Below, piece after piece: positions 6,459 through 57,296 of a stretch of 64,000 nucleotides of DNA. How positions within the stretch are numbered: position 1 is the first letter of the stretch; each line of letters opens with the position of its first letter. Below the pieces are notes generated by a model. That model was not told where the DNA came from and did no database searches. It saw only the letters and a program-made list of their open reading frames with translations. The stretch covers positions 3,286,001-3,350,000 of the forward strand of contig NC_089440.1 of assembly GCF_026210795.1 (NCBI RefSeq), given 5' to 3'. Source of the stretch: Rhizophagus irregularis (taxonomy: Eukaryota; Glomeromycota; Glomeromycetes; Glomerales; Glomeraceae). The position numbers were made by a program, and so were the translations under genes.

Positions 6459-7634
6459 CAATTTAACGTTTATGGGATATAACATTAATGGGCTGGGCCC
6501 AGATCATTCCAAACTTAACTTACTAACGGAATATTGCTCAAACAAGGGAGCCGACATAATAGGTATATGTGAAACAAACAGAGATAAAAACACGGTGAAT
6601 ATTGGAATAAGCAAAGCTTAGTATACACCTCTTTCTGGACTAATAAAGACAATAAGATAAAAGGATCTGGAGTGTGCATAATGATCAATAAGAAATGGGA
6701 AAACCACATTGGAAAAATTAGAAGATTGGGTGCATACTATATAGAAGCTTGGTTGTTCTTTAAGAATTGCACGCTCATAATAGGTGTAATTTATTTACCA
6801 CCATCAGACACAAAAAAACAAAACGAGCTCACAAACTACATTAAAAAAGAATTCACTAATCACAGCAAGAAAAACAGGTATTACGTTTTGATAGGAGATC
6901 TCAATTCATACATGGATAAAACATTAGATTATAGTGGCTTATCCAAACTCAGAAAAAGACCTTCAAATATTATTACATGGCTAGACAATGCCTTCTTTAC
7001 GGACACATATAGGAAACTAAATCCCAAAAAAAGATGTTTCACATGGAAAAATAAGAATACATCAACCAGAATTGATTACATTTGGGCAGACCCCAAGCTC
7101 GAAGCTAACATTAAAAAAAGCCACATATATCAATCGGTTGACATTACAGACAGTGATCACAACATTATACTTGCAGAAATCTCGTTCACCAGTATAATAG
7201 TCACTAACAATAAAGGAGGCAGAAGAGCGGAAAAAAGCTCAACACGCATCGTATATGATTATGAAAATACCACCAACGAACAGTGGAATGCATATGAGAA
7301 TTACCTTAAGATCCTTCTGGAAAAACACAAGGCCTTTAGATACATAGAAACCCACGGACATAATGAAAATACACTGAACAAATTGTGGGACATTATATGT
7401 AATTGTGTACAACAAGCCGCACTCAAACACATTCCACACAAAAAGATAGGTGGGGTCAAAACCAATTTTAATAGAAACTACAAAGAAATTGAAGATTCCT
7501 CTAAAGAACGTAAAGACCTATTATATATTAGAAGCATAATGAGGAAATTATATAAAAATGAATTAAAGGGAATGGAACTACTTAACGCATCGAAAGGAAT
7601 CAAATCATTCAACAACGCTATGGAACTGATATAG
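6459..7634 (+). pseudogene. LINE endonuclease (EEP/APE-like) domain
   Basis: This part would nick genomic DNA to prime reverse transcription. Motifs read in order: GYNINGLG near 6477 (the usual start of the fold), DIIGICETN with the catalytic E, LIGDLNSYMD near 6893 (GDxN), RIDYIWADP near 7066 and DSDHNIILAE near 7153 (the SDH catalytic end). One stop at about 6619 splits the domain, so translation from the ATG at 6672 would lack the first motifs. After 7634 the frame is lost until 7691. Confidence 0.85.
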
Positions 7635-9698: not shown

Positions 9699-11160
9699 AT
9701 GAGATTAAAAAAGGCGCAGTTAATCTTGAACATATCGTCATGTGTTCTCTTGATGGAACCGGACGTCACAGTTCCTAACAAAATGCCAAATAATCACGCT
9801 TATAATGTAATGAGGAAAGCATATGATTACTTATTTAAATTTCACCCACTATCAGACAACGAAGAATGGGACATACCATTAATAGGTCTGAATGTAAGAA
9901 ATTTTGTATATCAACAGGCGCCAAAGATGCATACGAAAGATAAAGAACTTATTATAAGAAAAGCAGCATCTATGTCAATTTATGGTGCATTACAGCTGGT
10001 TAATCAAGATGCTTCAGATACAGTCACATGGCAACAGATTTGTGACGTCAATAAAAGACCAGCTAGAGGAAAAATTCTGAGATGGTTCACTTTACTAGCG
10101 GAACTCATACAGAAGGCATCTTATCTAAAGGATTTCTGTATGACAGAGAGGACGCCCTTTAATTCAGAAAATTCCTTAGATCATGAAGAAAGTGATTTAG
10201 AAAATGCACAGGCATTTAGAATGTTAAAGAAACTTCCATCCATAGATAACAGAAAGAAAGAATTTGTCCACATGCAGCAGAATTACACACTAACATTTGG
10301 ACAAATTAATAAAAAACATCAAACTGGCAAACATACAATACAACACTGGGTTATAACAGACAATGAGCAGAAAATAGATAATGAAAAGCCATACAAAATA
10401 ATTAAGCGATGTGAAGGTTGTTCACTAAATGATAGAAGAGTCAATAAAGAAACTCATGACTGCTATTTTAACAAAGACCGCCTGTTATTAACTTGTATAA
10501 ATAGAGTACCCAAATACCGAAATGATCCAGATACTAGAATAGTAAAAGACATTATAGAAAATAGAAATTATTCACTTCCACAAAAAACTGTAGAACATAG
10601 TCTTGTGGGTATACAGATTCCAGACTATGATACGGCCTTAATCCAAAACACATTGTTAGACAATGAAGCCATACAACAGCATACAACATTATTACAACAA
10701 ATAAGACTGAATTTCGTCCCACATGATACGATTAACATATACACAGATGGCTCACTAACGAATCGTTTTAACAACAGCTCTAACACATTTACAAAACTCA
10801 TGGGCACAGGTTGGGTAATATTGAATAATAAAGATGAAGTAATATTAGAATGCAACAGTTCAATCACAGATTGGCCTTCATCCACACATGCAGAACTAGG
10901 AGCCATTCTGTCAGCCATATTAGTTTTACAGACAGGACAGAAAGCAAATATTATTACAGACTCACAAGCTGCCATAGATAGTATTAATCACACAAGAACA
11001 AATCTAACAAATGGTAAAAACAAAACTCGAACATGGTGCAAATGTAACAACTATAGTATAGTAAGTAGTATAATTAACCTTATTGATAGTAAACAGTTAG
11101 AAATAAAGTTGGTAAAAGTTAAAGGTCACTCAGGAGTCAGGGCAATGAAGAAGCAGATAG
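9699..11160 (+). pseudogene. LINE downstream ORF portion with RNase H domain
   Basis: An open frame of about 490 codons continues the LINE polyprotein. A connection region with a CxxC-type segment (CEGCSLNDRR near 10410) leads into RNase HI: INIYTDGSLT (about 10732, first D), STHAELGAILSAI (E), IITDSQAAIDSI (D) and VKGHSGV near 11120. The frame shifts just after KGHSGV; the expected last acidic residue is read in the next frame. Confidence 0.8.
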
Positions 11161-11161
11161 G

Positions 11162-12232
11162 GTGGCAAAAAACAACACAAAGAAACCAACTTGCATTAAT
11201 ATTAAAGATTCACAACAAAAGGATTTAATATATGATATCTACTGGAATGGCAAAAGAGTTGACAGAAATATCAGAAAATTTATAGATAAATTGTGTGAAA
11301 CTACATTAGATGCTGCATGGTCCCTCAACCGCACACATAGATCAGTCTTTTCAGATACAACTGACACAATAGAAGAAGAGGTTACTTGGACACTGTTTAA
11401 AAAAAATACAGGACACAACTATACAACATCACTAACAAACGACAGATTCATCAAACACTTGAAACTTTTAAATTGTTTGCTCCCAACTCTAGAAATCATG
11501 AAGGAAAGAAGATATGACTTATATGGAGATGTAAAATGTAGGTTTTGTCTTGAAGAAAATGAAGATGATGATCATATGATATATTGTCAACAGCTCAGTA
11601 ATAAGTGGACAATTGTAGCTGACAACACTGTATGTAAATGTAATCAAATAATTAAAAATTTTTTATTACAAGAAAAACATATTCAATTAAGTCAAGAAGA
11701 CACACAACAACTGCTCTCATGGAATAACAACTTCTTTGCTAACACAACTGCTGTTGATTTGAATATGCCTATTCCCTATGTTCACTTAATGATAAAAAGT
11801 TTTTTTCCAAAAGGAAAATACAAGGAACTCAAGACCATTGTTAAGTCAAAGAGAATAGCATTAACTATTGCAGCCCTTTTCTTGGAAGTATTTGTTAGTG
11901 GATTTTACAATATCATCTGGCAATCACGTTGTAAGGCAGTAGCAGAATGGGAACATACTAAAGGCATAAAAAAACAAGATTTAAGGAAAAGGCCATTAGC
12001 ATATCAACGTATTGCATATAATCGGATTCTAACTATACAAACAGAAGAGGGTACGTTTGATTTGGAAAAAAGAAAAATTTTGAAACATAATGAACAATGG
12101 TCAATAGCATTAGAAAAAACAAAACAATACATTAACCAATTTATTAGAGAAGGGAACAGGGTACTTTGGAAGGTATATAATAATACAAAAATATACAAAT
12201 ATAATATAATTTTTCTTTTTTTTTTTATCTAG
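11162..12232 (+). pseudogene. LINE C-terminal region with CCHC-like zinc knuckle
   Basis: This frame overlaps the previous one by a frameshift and continues the polyprotein. Near 11538 it encodes CRFCLEENEDDDHMIYC, a C-x2-C-x8-H-x4-C-like knuckle that often closes this class of LINE. The rest, rich in K and W, has no recognised domain. The stop at 12230 is followed by about 220 bp of 3' UTR and the poly-A tail. Confidence 0.75.
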
Positions 12233-44158: not shown

Positions 44159-46652
44159 TTAATCAACTTCTTCAATTGTTGGTCTAAAATTAAGAAAATT
44201 AAATAGTTAGATCTATTTCAATAGAAAATAGTAAGATTAATAATAATTTATGTTTAAATATAAACACATACCCTGCATTGTCATCAGCGGGTGCACCACC
44301 CGGTGCACCACCTGGGAAACCGCCTGGTGGGAAACCTCCGGCGCCTGGTGGGGCTCCACCTGCACCACCGTAAAGTTTCATCATTATTGGGTTGGCAACT
44401 TCTTCGAGTGATTTCTGTTTATGATCATATTCTTCTTTCTCTGCTTCCTGGTTATTCTCAAGCCATGTAATTGAATCTTGAATTGCATCTTCAAGTTTTT
44501 TCTTATCTGCTGGTTCGAGTTTACCAGAAATTTTCTCGTCCTATTATTTAGGATAAATTTATTAATCGACACTCTTAAATGATGACAAATTCAAACTATG
44601 ATCAATGTTTTATAGGACTTACTTGAAGTGTGTTGCGTAAGTTATATGCATAACTTTCCAAGCCATTTCGTGACTGTATTCTTTGTGCAACTTTCTCGTC
44701 ATCTGCTTTATATTTCTCGGCTTCGGCAACTGTAATCGTTGAGAAAAATATTAATAAAAGCTTATAAAAACATAAAAATGTATTATTAAAGAATGATTAC
44801 AAACCCATGCGTTCGATTTCTTCTTTCGACAATCGTCCTTTGTCATTAGTGATGGTAATCTTATTTGATCTACCAGTTGTTTTATCAACAGCAGAAACCT
44901 GTAAGGATTAAAAAAAAATGTTAGAAAAAAAAATTATACGCAATTTGATAAATAGTATATTATAGTTACATACGTTTAATATACCGTTTGCGTCAATATC
45001 AAAGGTAACTTCAATCTGTGGAACACCTCTTGGTGCTGGAGGAATTCCGGTTAATTCGAATTTTCCGAGCAAGTTGTTATCTCTTGTTCGGGTACGTTCA
45101 CCTTCATATACTTGAATAAGCACACCAGGCTGATTATCGGAATATGTGGAGAAAATTTCAGATTTCTTTGTGGGTACTGTGGTGTTACGCTTAATAAGCG
45201 GTGTCATAACACCACCGGCAGTCTCGATACCAAGAGATAAAGCAGCGACGTCGAGTAAAAGTAAATCTTGAGTCTTTTCTGAAGTATCACCAGATAAAAT
45301 AGCAGCTTGTACGGCGGCACCATAAGCGACGGCTTCATCAGGATTTATGGATTTGTTTGGTTCTTTGCCATTGAAGAACTCAGATACCATCTTTTGAATC
45401 TTAGGAATACGTGTTGAACCACCGACTAAGACGATTTCATGAACCTGACTTTTATCAATTTTAGAATCACGAAGCACTTTCTCGACAGGTTCCATTGTAG
45501 ATCGGAATAAATCCTGGTTCAATTCTTCGAATCTGGCACGCGTCAATGTAGTGTAGAAGTCGACACCTTCGAAAAGGGAATCAATCTCTATGGAAGTCTG
45601 TGCTGATGCCGATAGTGTACGTTTTGCGCGTTCACAAGCAGTTCTTAAACGACGGACAGCACGCGCATTGCTTGAAATATCTTTCTTAAATTTACGCTTG
45701 AATTCTTGAACGAAATGGTTAACAAGACGATTATCGAAATCTTCACCACCAAGATGGGTGTCACCAGCAGTGGCTTTTACTTCAAAAATTCCTTCTTCAA
45801 TAGTTAAGAGGGAAACGTCAAAAGTACCACCACCCAAATCAAAGATTAAAACGTTTCGTTCTCCGGTGGCTTTCTTGTCCAAACCGTAAGCGATAGCTGC
45901 CGCAGTCGGCTCATTGATAATACGAAGAACGTTCAAACCAGAAATTAAACCGGCATCTTTAGTTGCTTGACGTTGAGAATCGTTAAAGTAAGCTGGTACT
46001 GTGATTACGGCATTTTTGACCACTGTACCAAGGAAAGCCTCCGCGGTTTCTTTCATTTTTATCAATACCATGGATGAAATTTCCTCAGGCGTGAATTCTT
46101 TCTTTTCGCCTTTATATTCGACTTGGATGTATGGTTTCCCATTCTTATTAAGGACTTTGAACGGCCAGTGCTACATATTTAATGAAAAAAATCACGTCGA
46201 TTATTCGTCGTTTAACATTTTTTTAGGAAAAAAATATAAAAATGAAATTGTTTTAGATGTACATACCTTCATATCGGACTGAACATCCTGATCATTGAAA
46301 TTACGCCCAATGAGACGTTTAGCATCAAAGACGGTATTATGAGGATTCATCGCTACTTGATTTTTGGCCGCATCACCGATAAGACGTTCTGTATCAGTGA
46401 AAGCAACATATGACGGTGTTGTACGATTACCCTGGTCATTAGCAATAATTTCAACTCTGTCATTCTGCCAAACACCTACACAGGAGTAGGTCGTTCCTAA
46501 ATCAATACCAACTGATTTACAAAAAAAAAAAAATTAATTTTTCGCGTCTATAGAAAAAAGAACCTTTGAATTTTTAAACATTTTAGTTCGTGAAGATACT
46601 TACCAGCTTTTCCTACTTCAGGTTTTGCTGCTTCACCTTTTGGTTCTGCCAT
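44159..46652 (-). CDS. Cytosolic heat shock protein 70 (Ssa type)
   Basis: Hsp70 is an ATP-driven chaperone. Minus-strand exons 46652-46604, 46511-46267, 46170-44974, 44898-44805, 44729-44623, 44540-44272 and 44183-44159 join in phase to 661 residues. All three family signatures are present: [12 protein letters not shown] (about 18-29), [14 protein letters not shown] (about 207-220) and [15 protein letters not shown]. The substrate domain follows ([13 protein letters not shown]). The tail is a G/A/P-rich linker ([14 protein letters not shown]) ending PTIEEVD; the EEVD terminus marks the nucleocytosolic class that binds TPR co-chaperones. There is no transit or signal peptide. Six introns are unusual for a strongly heat-induced copy, so this may be a constitutive cognate. 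A possible heat-shock element lies at 47055-47080. Confidence 0.96.
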
Positions 46653-47708: not shown

Positions 47709-49754
47709 TTAGATCGTTACCGTGTTATGTTTAGCAATTTGTTCTAATCTTTCCATAAAATCCCTTTGTCCATCCCATCTTTCCAATAATACGCAAAATT
47801 TGTCAATTATCTTCAAAGCCATTCTAATTGTTTCTGTACATACACGAGATTCAAGTAAACATCCACGTAACAGTTCATCAAGATATGAAGTGTGACCTAA
47901 TCTGATGTCCTCAAAATCACGTAATCTCTCTGACTCGTTACTATGAGTATCTTTCTTAGGATTCATTGATTTTGGACGTGTAGGCGATATGGGAGAACTT
48001 GGTTCAGTAGTTGATGACGGTCTTTGTTTTTGATGATGTGCAGAAGAAACGGTAATTCGACGAACAAGATTTTGAAAATTTGATTCAATAATATCCATCT
48101 GTAATGTATAACATGCATATTTCAAGCGAAATTATTTGTAAAAAAAAATTGAGACATATATTCAAAAAAATAACTTTTTTCATACTATGAAAATAATTTA
48201 AACCTGCACGTGAGCCCATAAACAATCCACGAAAAACATCATGGATGCACGAACATTCCAAGGCATTAGCATGATATTATTACCTCCTTTAGAAAATTTG
48301 TAATTTCTTTCCATCTTTACATTAGTCGCAAGATGAGTCCAGACTTTTTGAAGTTTATAATGAGTACGACGAAGAGAAATTAAGAATGAAAATATGTCCC
48401 CATATTTGGATAGATCTTCAGAAGTAACAAATAAATCAAGAGGCCAGCCTATATCATATTCAAATCTGAGTGGAACGCCTACAAGAATATCATCAAACAT
48501 GCTTGTTGCCTTTTCTGAAATTTTAAATCTAAATTTTTCAAATGCCAAGTCTTTCTCTGCTAATGTACCAACAGAAGCTCGAACTAACAAAGAATTCATT
48601 TCTTGTTCTTTAATTAACGGAGCCCTAGTAGATGAAAGTCTTGAAGTAGGCAACTTTTCAAATTGTTCAACAAGTGAAGTTGTAAAATCGCCTTGCCCAA
48701 GTAAGAAATAATTTTTAAAGGTTTCAAGACATTCGACAACTTTATCACCTGTCAAAACAACTTGCCATAACCACTGAGCAACATTGTCACGAATAATATT
48801 AACAATGTTTTCAAGCTCGATCTGATTAAATACCGGTCTTGATGAGAGTTCCAATAAATATTGCAAATGTAATGAAGCAATTTGATCGGGAAACTTGCTA
48901 TGTTTGTCATATGGCTTGGCTGAATTTCTGACAGTAGCAATTGCTTTCCCAACAAATAAAATTGATTTGGCAACATCGTTAGGAATATGATTTGGAATAA
49001 ACGATTCATCGAGAATAAAACGTCGATGCCATTTTGATCGGCTAAACTGTTCTTGTATTTGAATTGGATTTAATTTTAAGGTTTTATCTTTAATGAAAAA
49101 TTCTCCAAAGGGATCCACCAATTGTCCATAAACCAACCATGAAGCGATATGTTTATACATCACTTCATGACATGCATGCAATAGTTTCAACATAATTTCT
49201 CGTAATTCAGGTACACCTGTATTACATTTGTCAATGACCAAATTAATTATTCGACAACCGAAATATTTTACAGAATTTTGTTCTATATCATTTATCAATT
49301 GGTTAAGATGTGGAAGAATGATATAATACTCATTAAAAGCAGAAACTAATTGTGAAATGGGAACTACTCCGCCCATATTATCTTCTTTGCTTAGAATTCT
49401 TATCTCGGATTCGATAATTGATTTATGAAAGTCTGCCAGTACTTCATTTATGGCGTTACATAGCGCGTGTAAGAATGAACCACGTAAAGTATTATTGCTA
49501 CCCTTTTGAGCCTCGATAGATTCAGAGTTATTATTATTTTCGTTTCTACCACGTTGTTTATCAAGAAAGTTGGCTATTTTTCGATAATAAAAGCCTAAAG
49601 CAGAGAGTCGTTCTAAAGAACTTTTTTCTGCTTCGTGTAAAAATGGAAAATCTGGTGGAATTTTAAAAGTTGTCGCTATTTCTGGTTCTGGAGGATATGG
49701 AACAAACAAGTCACCAGAAAGACCAGATAAAGCTAAGAGCATTTCATGAAGCAT
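47709..49754 (-). CDS. Gamma-tubulin complex component 4 (GCP4)
   Basis: GCP4 is part of the gamma-tubulin ring complex that nucleates microtubules. Minus-strand exons 49754-48204 and 48098-47709 join in phase (HVQ-MDIIESNF) to 646 residues, close to the roughly 670 of animal GCP4. The start MLHEMLLALSG aligns with the conserved GCP4 N terminus; FPFLHEAEKSSLERL, ACHEVMYKHIASWLVYG, DPFGEFFIK and the C-terminal RRTHYKLQKVWTHL/FVDCLWAHVQ stretch follow. A Ser/Pro-rich insert (PSSTTEPSSPISPTRP) lies in exon 2. The stop at 47709 is taken as real; a GTAACG just before it and a TTGCAG 28 bp later could form a very short intron adding about ten residues, but 28 bp is probably too short. The start is 150 bp from divergent COQ2. 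Confidence 0.92.
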
Positions 49755-53651: not shown

Positions 53652-56600
53652 ATGTTATCAAATACGCGTCAACTTAAACTAACTAAACCTTTATACGTTT
53701 ATAAACCAGTAATATCTTTGCGGTATGTGAGTAATGATATACAACGAAGTTTTAAAACCAACTCTAATATTCAAGAACAACAAAGTACGCAAATTACAGA
53801 CATAAATATAAATAATATTCTATCTCAAACGGACAAATTGAATGCTTGGAGTGATGTTTTTGCCAAGGCACCACAAAATGACGCGTCAAACAGTAAATTG
53901 TCTAGACAGGATTTGAAAAGATATTCTAAACAGATTGTAAAAGAAGAAAAAGAAAAGCATATTCTCGAAGGTAATTTGGAAATGGAAATAAATCAAGGGG
54001 TAAGGCCGAAAGAAGAAGAAAGTCAGAGTAAGCACATAAATTATTCTACCGGATTTTATTCAGTTTGAGTGAGTTTAATGTTTTCAAAATTCATCATCTT
54101 ATCATATAGATAATATCATGATTTGATTCAATTAGAATAAGAGAAGAGAAATAAATTTTAATCACAAAAGGTTTGTTATAACATCATTTTTTTTTTTATA
54201 ATTAGGAGTTATCAACGAAGCAGGTGTACATATGCTTCCAGACTGGCTTTACAAGCAAGTTTTCAATCGTTCAATTCGTCCTGTTCCCCCCAAAAATCTT
54301 GTAGAAATATCAATGGAACATTTGAAAGAACAAGGATATTATAATAAAAAGGCCGATACTGTACCTAATATTAATCAGTTCAAATTACCGAAATTATGTG
54401 GAAAGACAATATCAGAACATTTTTGGAGAATTGGAGAAGAACAAGCGCGTCCAATTCGTGACTTGGCAATGCATCTTGTGGGCACAAATTTACCGACAAT
54501 GCCAACAAACTGGATATTGCGTCCGGGTTGGACGCGTTATGAGGGAGGAAAACTTCCTAATTCTGTAGATTATCCAAATGAAAGTATTTTATGTTTTAAT
54601 ACTAAAACATTCGATGAACATAAATACCCATTAATAGCTTGTGCGGCATCTCCTACTGCGTGGTATTCCTGGATATCGCCGCGATTATTAAGTAATGATG
54701 ATGAAATTGATTGTGATTCAAAATATTTGATTCCAGTGGGAAACCTTAAAAAAGATAGGTTAATTGTTGGACATAATGTTGGAATTGATCGGATAAGGAT
54801 TAAAGAGGAATATCATTATGCAGGATCAAACATTAGTTTTTTAGACACACAGTCTTTGCATATTGCAGTTAGCGGTATCTGTTCTCGATTGAAAAATGAT
54901 TGGAATAAATATAATAAGGCTTATAAAAATAGTGACAAACAATATATGCTACAAGAAAAAAAATTTCGGAAAATTTATGATGTCTCATCAGTCAATAGCT
55001 TATATGAAGTATATAATTTTTATTGTAATCAATATTTAAACAAACCAGGACGGGATGTATTTATTAAAGGGACTTTCAAAGAACTTCAAGATACAAAAAA
55101 TTTACAACAAGCTATTGTTTCTTGTGCAAGTAACGTAGAGGCAGCACATCAAGTTTTTCAAAAGTTATTTCCGAAGTTTATAGATGTTTGTCCACATCCT
55201 GTATCATTTGCCGGAGTGGTTCAAATGGGAAGTATGTTTTTGACGACGAATAAAGATTGGGAAAAGTTTATAATTAATTCTGAAGCGAAATATAAATCTT
55301 TAAATGAATCAATCGAATCAACTTTAGGGAAATTAGCTGGTAAAACCTTGAAAGAAAGAAATCATGGCGATCAATGGGTGAATCAATTGGATTGGAGAAT
55401 CAATAGTAGTAATCATCCAGAATGGTATAATAAAATTTATAACAAGAATACAAATAAGGTTCGAGTGACTGCTTTAAGTCAAATTGCACCAATTTTACTA
55501 AAATTGAAATGGTTAAATTATCCTGTTTATTATTCAAAGCAATATGGATGGATGTATCGCGTTCCAATTGAAGATAAACACTTCACAGTAAATTCTGAAT
55601 TGTGCAAATTCCCTACACTACCGGAACATGTTTACTATGAACCTCACTTTTCAGAGGATAAAAATGGATCTTATTATTGTATACCGAATAAAAATGGAAG
55701 GACAAATCGTTGCGGTACTCCACTTGCTAAAAAATATATTTGTGATTTTGAAAATGGTACGTTGCAATCTGACCGCAAAGAAGCTGAAGAAATTCTAAAA
55801 TTTCATGCAGCCTGTACTTACTGGATGTCTATTCGAGATAGAATTAAATCTCAATTGCCAATTTATTCTGGTTATTCTGGGATTTATAATTTTGGGTTTG
55901 ATACGAATGATGAGGAAGACATCGGAATAATTCTACCTAAAACTATAGCAATGGGAACAATTACACGACGTGTTGTTGAAAATACTTGGGCTACTGCAAC
56001 AAATCCCAGAGAGTATTTAATAGGATCTGAACAAAAATCTATGATTAAAGCACCTAAAGGATATAAAATAGTAGGAGCAGATGTAGATTCACAAGAAATG
56101 TGGATATCAAGTTTGATAAGTGACGCAGAATTTGGATTTCATGGCGCTACTGGATTAGGATTAATGATGCTTCAAGGTAGTAAATCTGAGGGTACAGACT
56201 TACATTCCGAAACTGCTAAAATTTTGGGAATAACACGAGATGATGCTAAAGTTTTTAATTACAGTAGATTATATGGAGCTGGTATAAAAACTATCTTGGG
56301 AATGCTTGAAAATTCCTTTGCCAATATAAATGTGGAAGAAGCTGAAGAGAGAGTAAAAACCCTATTCAAAAAAACAAAGGGTCAAAGATATTATAGTTCA
56401 AATATTAATGGACACGGTTTTTGGTTTGGTGGTAGTGAGACATACTTGGCGAATCGTTTAGAAGAGATTGCGACATCATTAGAACCTTTAACTCCTGTAT
56501 TGAGGTGCGGGATAACTAATGCATTGAAACCTGCAAATGCTGATCGAAGTTATATGACTTCACGTGTTAATTGGGTAGTCCAATCATCAGGCGTAGACTA

Positions 56601-57296
56601 CCTTCATTTACTTTTAGTGTCAATGAAATATTTGATTAAAAAATATAATATAAATGCACGTTTCATGTTATCTGTTCACGATGATGTACGTTATCTTGTA
56701 AAAGAAGATGACGCATATCGTGCTGCATTGGCACTTCAAATCAGTAATCTTTGGACCAGAGCAATGTTTAGCCATATGTTGGGCATTGAAGATCTTCCTC
56801 TGGTATGTTATCTAAATATTTATTAAAAATAAATTATTTAACATTTTATTCAATGTTATTTTTTTCAATATATTAGACTACTGCGTTTTTTTCAGGTGTA
56901 GATATAGATCATGTATATCGTAAAGAGGTTGATATGAAATGTAATACAATTTCACATCAAATTGAAATTGAACCAGGAACTCGTGTTTCGATTCAAGAGA
57001 TTTTAAAACATCAAAGAACATTACGATGCACTGATTCAAGTTTATGTGATGAATCATTAGAACCTGATTTTGTAAAAGATTTAGGATCTTACGACTCATT
57101 TTTATGGAAAGCATATCAACCAAAAGATGATAAATTATTTCTTAAAGCTCAATCCATGTCATCTACAGAAGAAATAAAAAAACTATGTAAAGAATCAAAT
57201 TCACCAGAGATAAAAACGTATACCAATCAATTACTAAACAAAAAGAAACGAGTATTTGAGCCATATGTTGAAACACCAGAAGCTAACAGTAATTAA
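53652..57296 (+). CDS. MIP1: Mitochondrial DNA polymerase gamma (Mip1/POLG) with degenerate exonuclease motifs
   Basis: This enzyme copies mitochondrial DNA. Exons 53652-54027, 54206-56802 and 56877-57296 join in phase (SQ-R-VINEAG; DLPL-TTAFFSGVD) to 1130 residues; the ATG at 53652 is the first in frame and starts a basic, presequence-like stretch. Polymerase motifs look intact: GADVDSQEMWIS (motif A, D751), TRDDAKVFNYSRLYGAG (motif B) and SVHDDVRYLV (motif C, D951), where the usual HDE reads HDD. The 3'-5' exonuclease does not: Exo I, normally FDxE, reads CFNTKTF (N257, K259); Exo II keeps its Asp (GHNVGIDR, D320); Exo III, normally YCxxD, reads SCASNV (S431, N435). The flanks of all three align well (PTAWYSW, FLDTQSLHIAVSG, CPHPVSFAG), so this is substitution, not misalignment. 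Confidence 0.93.

Follow-up and report, generated by a model that had tools for sequence, protein, structure and literature searches.

The window analysed here, a stretch of 64,000 nucleotides of the Rhizophagus irregularis genome (contig NC_089440.1, positions 3,286,001 to 3,350,000 of the forward strand), carries a gene of the DNA polymerase gamma (Pol gamma) family that we refer to as copy A. Our three-exon model of this gene spans positions 53652-57296, encodes 1130 amino acids with introns of the GT...AG type, and exceeds the span flagged in a preliminary description of this DNA (54598-55134):

53652-54027, + strand: exon 1 of copy A (gene model), 376 nt, with the N-terminus MLSNTRQLKLTKPLYVYKPVISLRYVS...
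54028-54205, + strand: intron 1, GTAAGC...ATTAG, phase 1, at the position of intron 1 in copy B, the second gene described below
54206-56802, + strand: exon 2, encoding the exonuclease domain, then a spacer, then the polymerase domain
56803-56876, + strand: intron 2, GTATGT...TATTAG, phase 0, at the position of intron 2 in copy B
56877-57296, + strand: exon 3, encoding the C-terminal part (TTAFFSGVDIDHVYRKEVDMKC...) and the stop codon

Two Pfam families were detected in the 864-residue main reading frame of copy A: DNApol_Exo (PF18136, 4.2e-97) at residues 49-316 and, C-terminal to it, DNA_pol_A (PF00476, 3.1e-17) at residues 596-833. Among solved structures, chain 9c51_A, which bears the name DNA polymerase gamma, comes closest (2e-201), with homology spanning residues 21-859 of the same frame; the matches at E <= 0.001 comprise 14 distinct solved sequences, every one of them annotated as DNA polymerase gamma or as its subunit gamma-1. 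By homology, copy A is identified as a DNA polymerase gamma (POLG/Mip1) by descent, one predicted not to proofread. Its N-terminus, judged with our own script from composition and hydrophobic moment, contains five basic and no acidic residues among the first 25 and resembles a mitochondrial targeting signal, by which the protein may be imported into mitochondria. Exon 1 is 376 nt long in copy A and 151 nt in copy B; the surplus forms a linker that separates the conserved core from the targeting-like peptide and by eye is rich in charged and polar residues.

A canonical paralogue on the same contig

When the copy A protein was compared with its own genome (146,748,485 bases in 32 contigs, with the best-scoring candidates scored), three matches were obtained, all on the contig that carries the window (C12). 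One is copy A; the other two adjoin each other at C12:2930910-2933648 and belong to copy B, which lies on the same strand 405,538 bases upstream of copy A and has a three-exon model of 1103 residues. Both introns match those of copy A in protein position and in phase (1 and 0). Copy B is canonical at each of the motifs considered below, with FDVE, the Exo II Asp (D265), YCASD, HDE and the Phe of helix O. Profile searches of the genome with both Pfam families led to the same pair of Pol gamma genes. Among the best candidates of the three genome searches (copy A protein and two Pfam families), run on sequence in which some stretches read N, a further one did not appear, making a third Pol gamma gene unlikely. 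The preliminary description had asked for a search for a second, exonuclease-competent Mip1 in this genome, and one was found about 405 kb upstream with its ligands intact. It had also left two readings side by side, a sole Pol gamma that polymerises without proofreading or a paralogue; the second stands, whereas the first falls with the canonical copy B in the genome. Because copy B is present, a loss of mitochondrial proofreading does not follow from the state of copy A, and we reject an organism-wide loss of this function.

Two further candidates were set aside. A segmental duplication finds no support in the flanks: of 104 ORFs of at least 50 codons taken from an 18 kb stretch surrounding copy B, none matched any of the window's 262 ORFs at E 1e-3, and when the copy B protein was included as a positive control, it alone gave a match, to the window gene. 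A second complete mitochondrial replisome was rejected as well, since the phage-type (mitochondrial) RNA polymerase family PF00940 was matched at one place only in the genome (C1:3046686-3048521) and the SSB and DnaB_C families were unmatched, in an exon-by-exon search whose negative result does not imply absence.

To place the duplication in time, copies A and B were compared with the sequences of 9c51 and 5c52, which we take to be yeast (Mip1) and human, respectively. The residue numbers in PMC12220841 and PMC4362329 fit these assignments. In a tree of these four sequences, a small sample, copies A and B pair with each other, apart from yeast and human, with a bootstrap of 100 and an AU p of 0.998 versus 0.005 and 0.004 for the alternatives, so that the duplication would be later than the split from yeast. 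The two copies are 54% identical in the aligned core and differ at 118 of 191 fourfold sites. We infer that the duplication is old and that it happened once yeast had branched off, on the fungal lineage of the R. irregularis genome.

The exonuclease active site of copy A

The three exonuclease motifs of copy A are as follows:

54595-54606, + strand: Exo I, FNTK in place of FDVE (D257N, V258T, E259K)
54769-54789, + strand: Exo II, GHNVGID, with the catalytic Asp D320 retained
55120-55134, + strand: Exo III, SCASN in place of YCASD (Y431S, D435N)

The codons concerned are AAT at 54598-54600 (N257) and AAA at 54604-54606 (K259) in Exo I, GAT at 54787-54789 (D320) in Exo II, and TCT at 55120-55122 (S431) and AAC at 55132-55134 (N435) in Exo III. 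The replacements in Exo I and Exo III and the retention of the Exo II Asp, all reported in the preliminary description, were recovered codon by codon, and the close alignment of the motif flanks that it described is upheld with one single-residue gap just past Exo I. Aligned to positions 257, 259, 320, 431, 435 and 952 of copy A are the yeast Mip1 residues D171, E173, D230, Y343, D347 and E893, counted from Y757 in a numbering that agrees for D171, E173, D230 and D347 with PMC4362329; copy B has D, E, D, Y, D and E at these six positions. Copy A retains one of the four catalytic exonuclease residues (D, E, D, D).

Laboratory alleles of yeast mip1 indicate what such changes would entail. In Table 1 of PMC4362329, E173K yields 110-210 fold more erythromycin-resistant mutants, D171G 100-180 fold, D347A 120 fold and T351I 220 fold. 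At the positions of yeast E173, D171, D347 and T351, copy A carries K, N, N and A; E259K is the identical change to E173K, and D171, D347 and T351 are hit at the same positions. Given the strong mutator effect of the matching yeast alleles, copy A, if translated, would almost certainly lack proofreading. The absence of proofreading expected of a translesion-like enzyme would, judging by the lost ligands, be a property of copy A.

Among the N-terminal and exonuclease columns that are identical in copy B, yeast and human, copy A has altered 16 of 70. Three of the four metal ligands are among these 16 (hypergeometric P 0.035), and adding the Exo III Tyr afterwards gives four of five (hypergeometric P 0.008), a modest enrichment that was in part assessed post hoc. 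The exonuclease-domain profile scores 328.6 bits for copy A versus 329.1 bits for copy B, which argues against decay of the exonuclease half in general; the exonuclease fold appears to have been kept and the active site lost.

An error of assembly or sequencing could in principle have altered the codons of copy A, as D257N, E259K and D435N are each reachable by one G-to-A change from an Asp or Glu codon. Such an error is, however, hardly credible, for no Val codon can yield V258T with fewer than two base changes, a single-residue gap follows Exo I, Y431S and E952D are not G-to-A changes, and the two copies differ throughout, as their 54% identity in the aligned core attests.

Selection on copy A and changes in its polymerase half

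Copy A has no stop in 1130 codons and keeps both intron borders. When neutral drift of copy B was simulated, 0.05 changes per site produced at least 4 stops in 200 of 200 runs (mean 12.2), and 0.65 changes per site produced 73.9 stops on average. The NG86 dN/dS between copies A and B is about 0.24 (0.27 in the exonuclease half, 0.30 in the spacer and 0.19 in the polymerase half), a pairwise value that averages both branches and in which dS is saturated. Taken together, the lack of stops, the kept intron borders and this ratio indicate that the protein of copy A has been under selection through most of its history, and a recent relaxation is possible. A plain pseudogene is rejected on the strength of the intact frame and introns. 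The preliminary description had held its reading to be at risk if the gene were an unexpressed duplicate beside a normal Mip1; a normal Mip1 does exist, but copy A, with its uninterrupted frame, does not look decayed.

Slow decay, however, stays among the rival readings. Overall, the branch of copy A measures 0.71 versus 0.34 for copy B, and copy A is the faster in all three regions, at 0.67 versus 0.47 in the exonuclease half (ratio 1.4), 0.77 versus 0.35 in the spacer (ratio 2.2) and 0.51 versus 0.18 in the polymerase half (ratio about 2.9), values drawn from few sequences and from region borders of our own choice. Counting columns that are identical in the other three sequences, with the count for copy B mirroring that for copy A, we found 16 of 70 altered in copy A versus 12 of 66 in copy B in the exonuclease half (Fisher P 0.53), 5 of 33 versus 1 of 29 in the spacer, and 28 of 145 versus 3 of 120 in the polymerase half (P 1e-5). 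The longer branch and the loss of otherwise invariant residues in three of three regions are what a duplicate that decays slowly, or is weakly selected and has no distinct task, would display. Yet the frame is full-length, both introns are conserved and no stop has arisen despite near-saturated synonymous divergence, the exonuclease domain scores on a par with that of copy B, and its invariant positions are not clearly more often changed than those of copy B; we therefore consider slow decay improbable.

The polymerase half of copy A is altered more than expected. The features that bear on its function are the following:

56017-56019, + strand: R730L, an Arg common to copy B, yeast and human (human R869, counted from Y955)
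56077-56097, + strand: polymerase motif A, ADVDSQE, intact
56236-56274, + strand: polymerase motif B / helix O, with R803, K807, Y811 and Y815 retained and G812S and I814L altered
56290-56292, + strand: F821T, corresponding to yeast Mip1 F763 and human F961, the 8-oxodG steric gate; Phe in copy B
56677-56685, + strand: polymerase motif C, HDD in place of HDE (E952D), with D952 encoded by GAT at 56683-56685

Copy A thus retains the acids of motif A, the Arg, Lys and two Tyr of motif B, and the His and first Asp of motif C, residues that we presume to have the catalytic roles generally assigned to them in Pol gamma. The HDD of motif C is present as first described. The earlier statement that motifs A and B are intact is roughly right: it holds for the catalytic side chains, but G812S, I814L, F821T and A822I alter helix O and the stretch past it. 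Within residues 803-830, which begin at helix O, 7 of 19 invariant columns are altered in copy A versus 0 of 12 in copy B; set against the remainder of the polymerase half, this clustering is of borderline significance (P 0.057), in a stretch that was picked after the changes had been seen and whose count is equalled by some overlapping 28-residue windows.

The excess of changes in the polymerase half (28 of 145 versus 3 of 120) would also fit a weakening polymerase in copy A. In the extreme case copy A would be a pseudo-enzyme that binds primer-templates and polymerises poorly or not at all, serving as a structural or regulatory partner or shielding DNA ends from the exonuclease of copy B. 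The Glu-to-Asp change in motif C together with G812S, R730L, W778L and F821T, all within the polymerase half, the roughly 2.9-fold faster evolution of that half and the Lys that stands in place of a metal ligand (E259K) would be in line with such a protein. Against it, a non-polymerase would have little reason to retain the acids of motif A and the catalytic side chains of motifs B and C, and we regard the pseudo-enzyme as unlikely.

The replacement at position 821 touches a residue with a known effect on damaged templates. According to PMC12220841, F763 of Mip1, six residues past the conserved Tyr of helix O, acts as a steric gate that disfavours dATP opposite 8-oxodG, and a Phe occupies this position in about 86-87% of 51 animal and fungal sequences, the exceptions being His or Tyr. 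The same paper reports that F763A inserted dAMP in 46.5% of events versus 14.9% for the normal residue, that dAMP insertion opposite 8-oxodG goes up in each of the five F763 alleles that were measured, that the catalytic efficiency at 8-oxodG of these five is below that of the normal enzyme, and that F763K and F763L are severely defective in extension past the lesion. Since the efficiency of the F763 alleles is lowered and Thr is not among the five measured, lesion tolerance of copy A is a guess, and F821T as a hint of lesion bypass is suggestive only.

A possible role beside the canonical polymerase

Because a normal Pol gamma is present, we believe that copy A is best viewed as an accessory, non-proofreading and possibly lesion-tolerant mitochondrial polymerase that would work beside the normal replicase, a reading to which we assign a probability of about 0.5. 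We propose that a duplicate of Pol gamma lost its proofreading chemistry and kept the exonuclease fold and the main catalytic residues of the polymerase. Canonical copy B would carry out proofreading replication, and copy A would most likely be active in the same mitochondria. Lacking an exonuclease, copy A would not strip back mismatched or lesion-paired primer ends, and its altered fingers helix, from which the Phe gate against 8-oxodG(syn) is gone, may accept such pairs. Copy A could then extend primers beyond oxidised or mismatched sites and fill gaps, after which copy B would resume synthesis and could excise the errors of copy A in trans. Work in flies and in vitro (PMC4773887) shows that exonuclease-deficient and polymerase-deficient forms of Pol gamma can take each other's place on the template and so make up for one another in trans, and by this precedent copy B could correct or continue the product of copy A.

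The same complementation would also serve a reversed division of labour, in which copy A would act as a main replicase, its fidelity being provided in trans, and copy B would proofread and clear damaged mtDNA. PMC11894172 describes the clearing of damaged mtDNA by the Mip1 exonuclease and mentions a trypanosome mtDNA polymerase that acts as an exonuclease only, both of which would suit such an arrangement. Copy B is canonical and slower-evolving, however, as expected of a replicase, and we judge the reversed roles very unlikely. Returning to copy A as an accessory polymerase, it is possible that arbuscular mycorrhizal fungi operate a two-Pol gamma system in which a proofreading replicase is joined by a dedicated error-tolerant Pol gamma, its exonuclease chemistry lost and its nucleotide-selecting helix remodelled. 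This extension is tentative and, on balance, somewhat unlikely; if true, mitochondria would own a family A translesion or controlled-mutagenesis polymerase.

Pol gamma is generally regarded as the only replicase in the mitochondria of fungi and animals, and its exonuclease-dead form is familiar as a laboratory mutator. Yeast Mip1 (9c51_A) shares with copy A the order of exonuclease and polymerase domains and the main catalytic residues of the polymerase; unlike yeast Mip1, copy A carries other residues at three of the four exonuclease ligands and at the Exo III Tyr, reads HDD in motif C, has a Gly-to-Ser change in helix O and Thr for the gate Phe, and is present beside a normal paralogue. The exonuclease-deficient Pol gamma of the laboratory (yeast mip1 exo-, fly D263A and the mutator mouse) is hit at the same residues, but these are engineered or selected replicase alleles, whereas copy A is a naturally fixed, extra gene. 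An inactive exonuclease-like domain also occurs in other family A enzymes, namely DNA polymerases theta and nu, which act in repair and lesion bypass, and the Taq-type Pol I; all are nuclear or bacterial and belong to other branches of family A than copy A. In plants and protists (POPs) and trypanosomes (PolIA-D), several family A polymerases that are not Pol gamma serve organelle DNA. Some euglenozoan organellar family A polymerases show no exonuclease domain by profile (PMC7238167, in part), and a plant organellar paralogue with a higher error rate has been assigned to repair (PMC7708058, in part). Engineered exonuclease-dead Pol gamma and organellar family A paralogues of Euglenozoa and plants that lack the exonuclease domain or differ in fidelity are thus already known; in the latter the domain is missing or fidelity differs, whereas in copy A the domain is kept and its active site lost.

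Among the open-licence matches listed in our literature search, judged by titles and the starts of abstracts, none reports that an arbuscular mycorrhizal fungus has a natural Pol gamma paralogue with a dead exonuclease; one paper in that search names Rhizophagus only for Ligase K. Relatives of copy A were not matched in collections of viral and prokaryotic contigs, as expected there. The hyphae of R. irregularis are multinucleate. A natural, long-kept exonuclease-dead paralogue beside a normal one would directly test three things: the mitochondrial use of two Pol gammas, the sharing of proofreading in trans, and the tolerance of damaged mtDNA through a specialised polymerase in a fungus with such hyphae. 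For structure-function work on Pol gamma fidelity, copy A would offer a natural set of substitutions in the fingers helix and the exonuclease site.

Several other ORFs of the window were recognised by eye. Upstream of copy A on the - strand lie ORFs resembling Hsp70 (44908-46071) and a gamma-tubulin-complex protein (48198-49754). On the + strand, ORFs at 6672-7634 and 9699-12232 look like parts of a non-LTR retroelement, the one endonuclease-like and the next RNase H-like with HAELGAILSAI and DSQAAIDSI. An ORF at 657-1400, also on the + strand, contains FRCPWCTNLSFRDSACLMFHLRNNH near its C-terminus, a sequence reminiscent of the zinc finger in Polycomb proteins of the Su(z)12 type.
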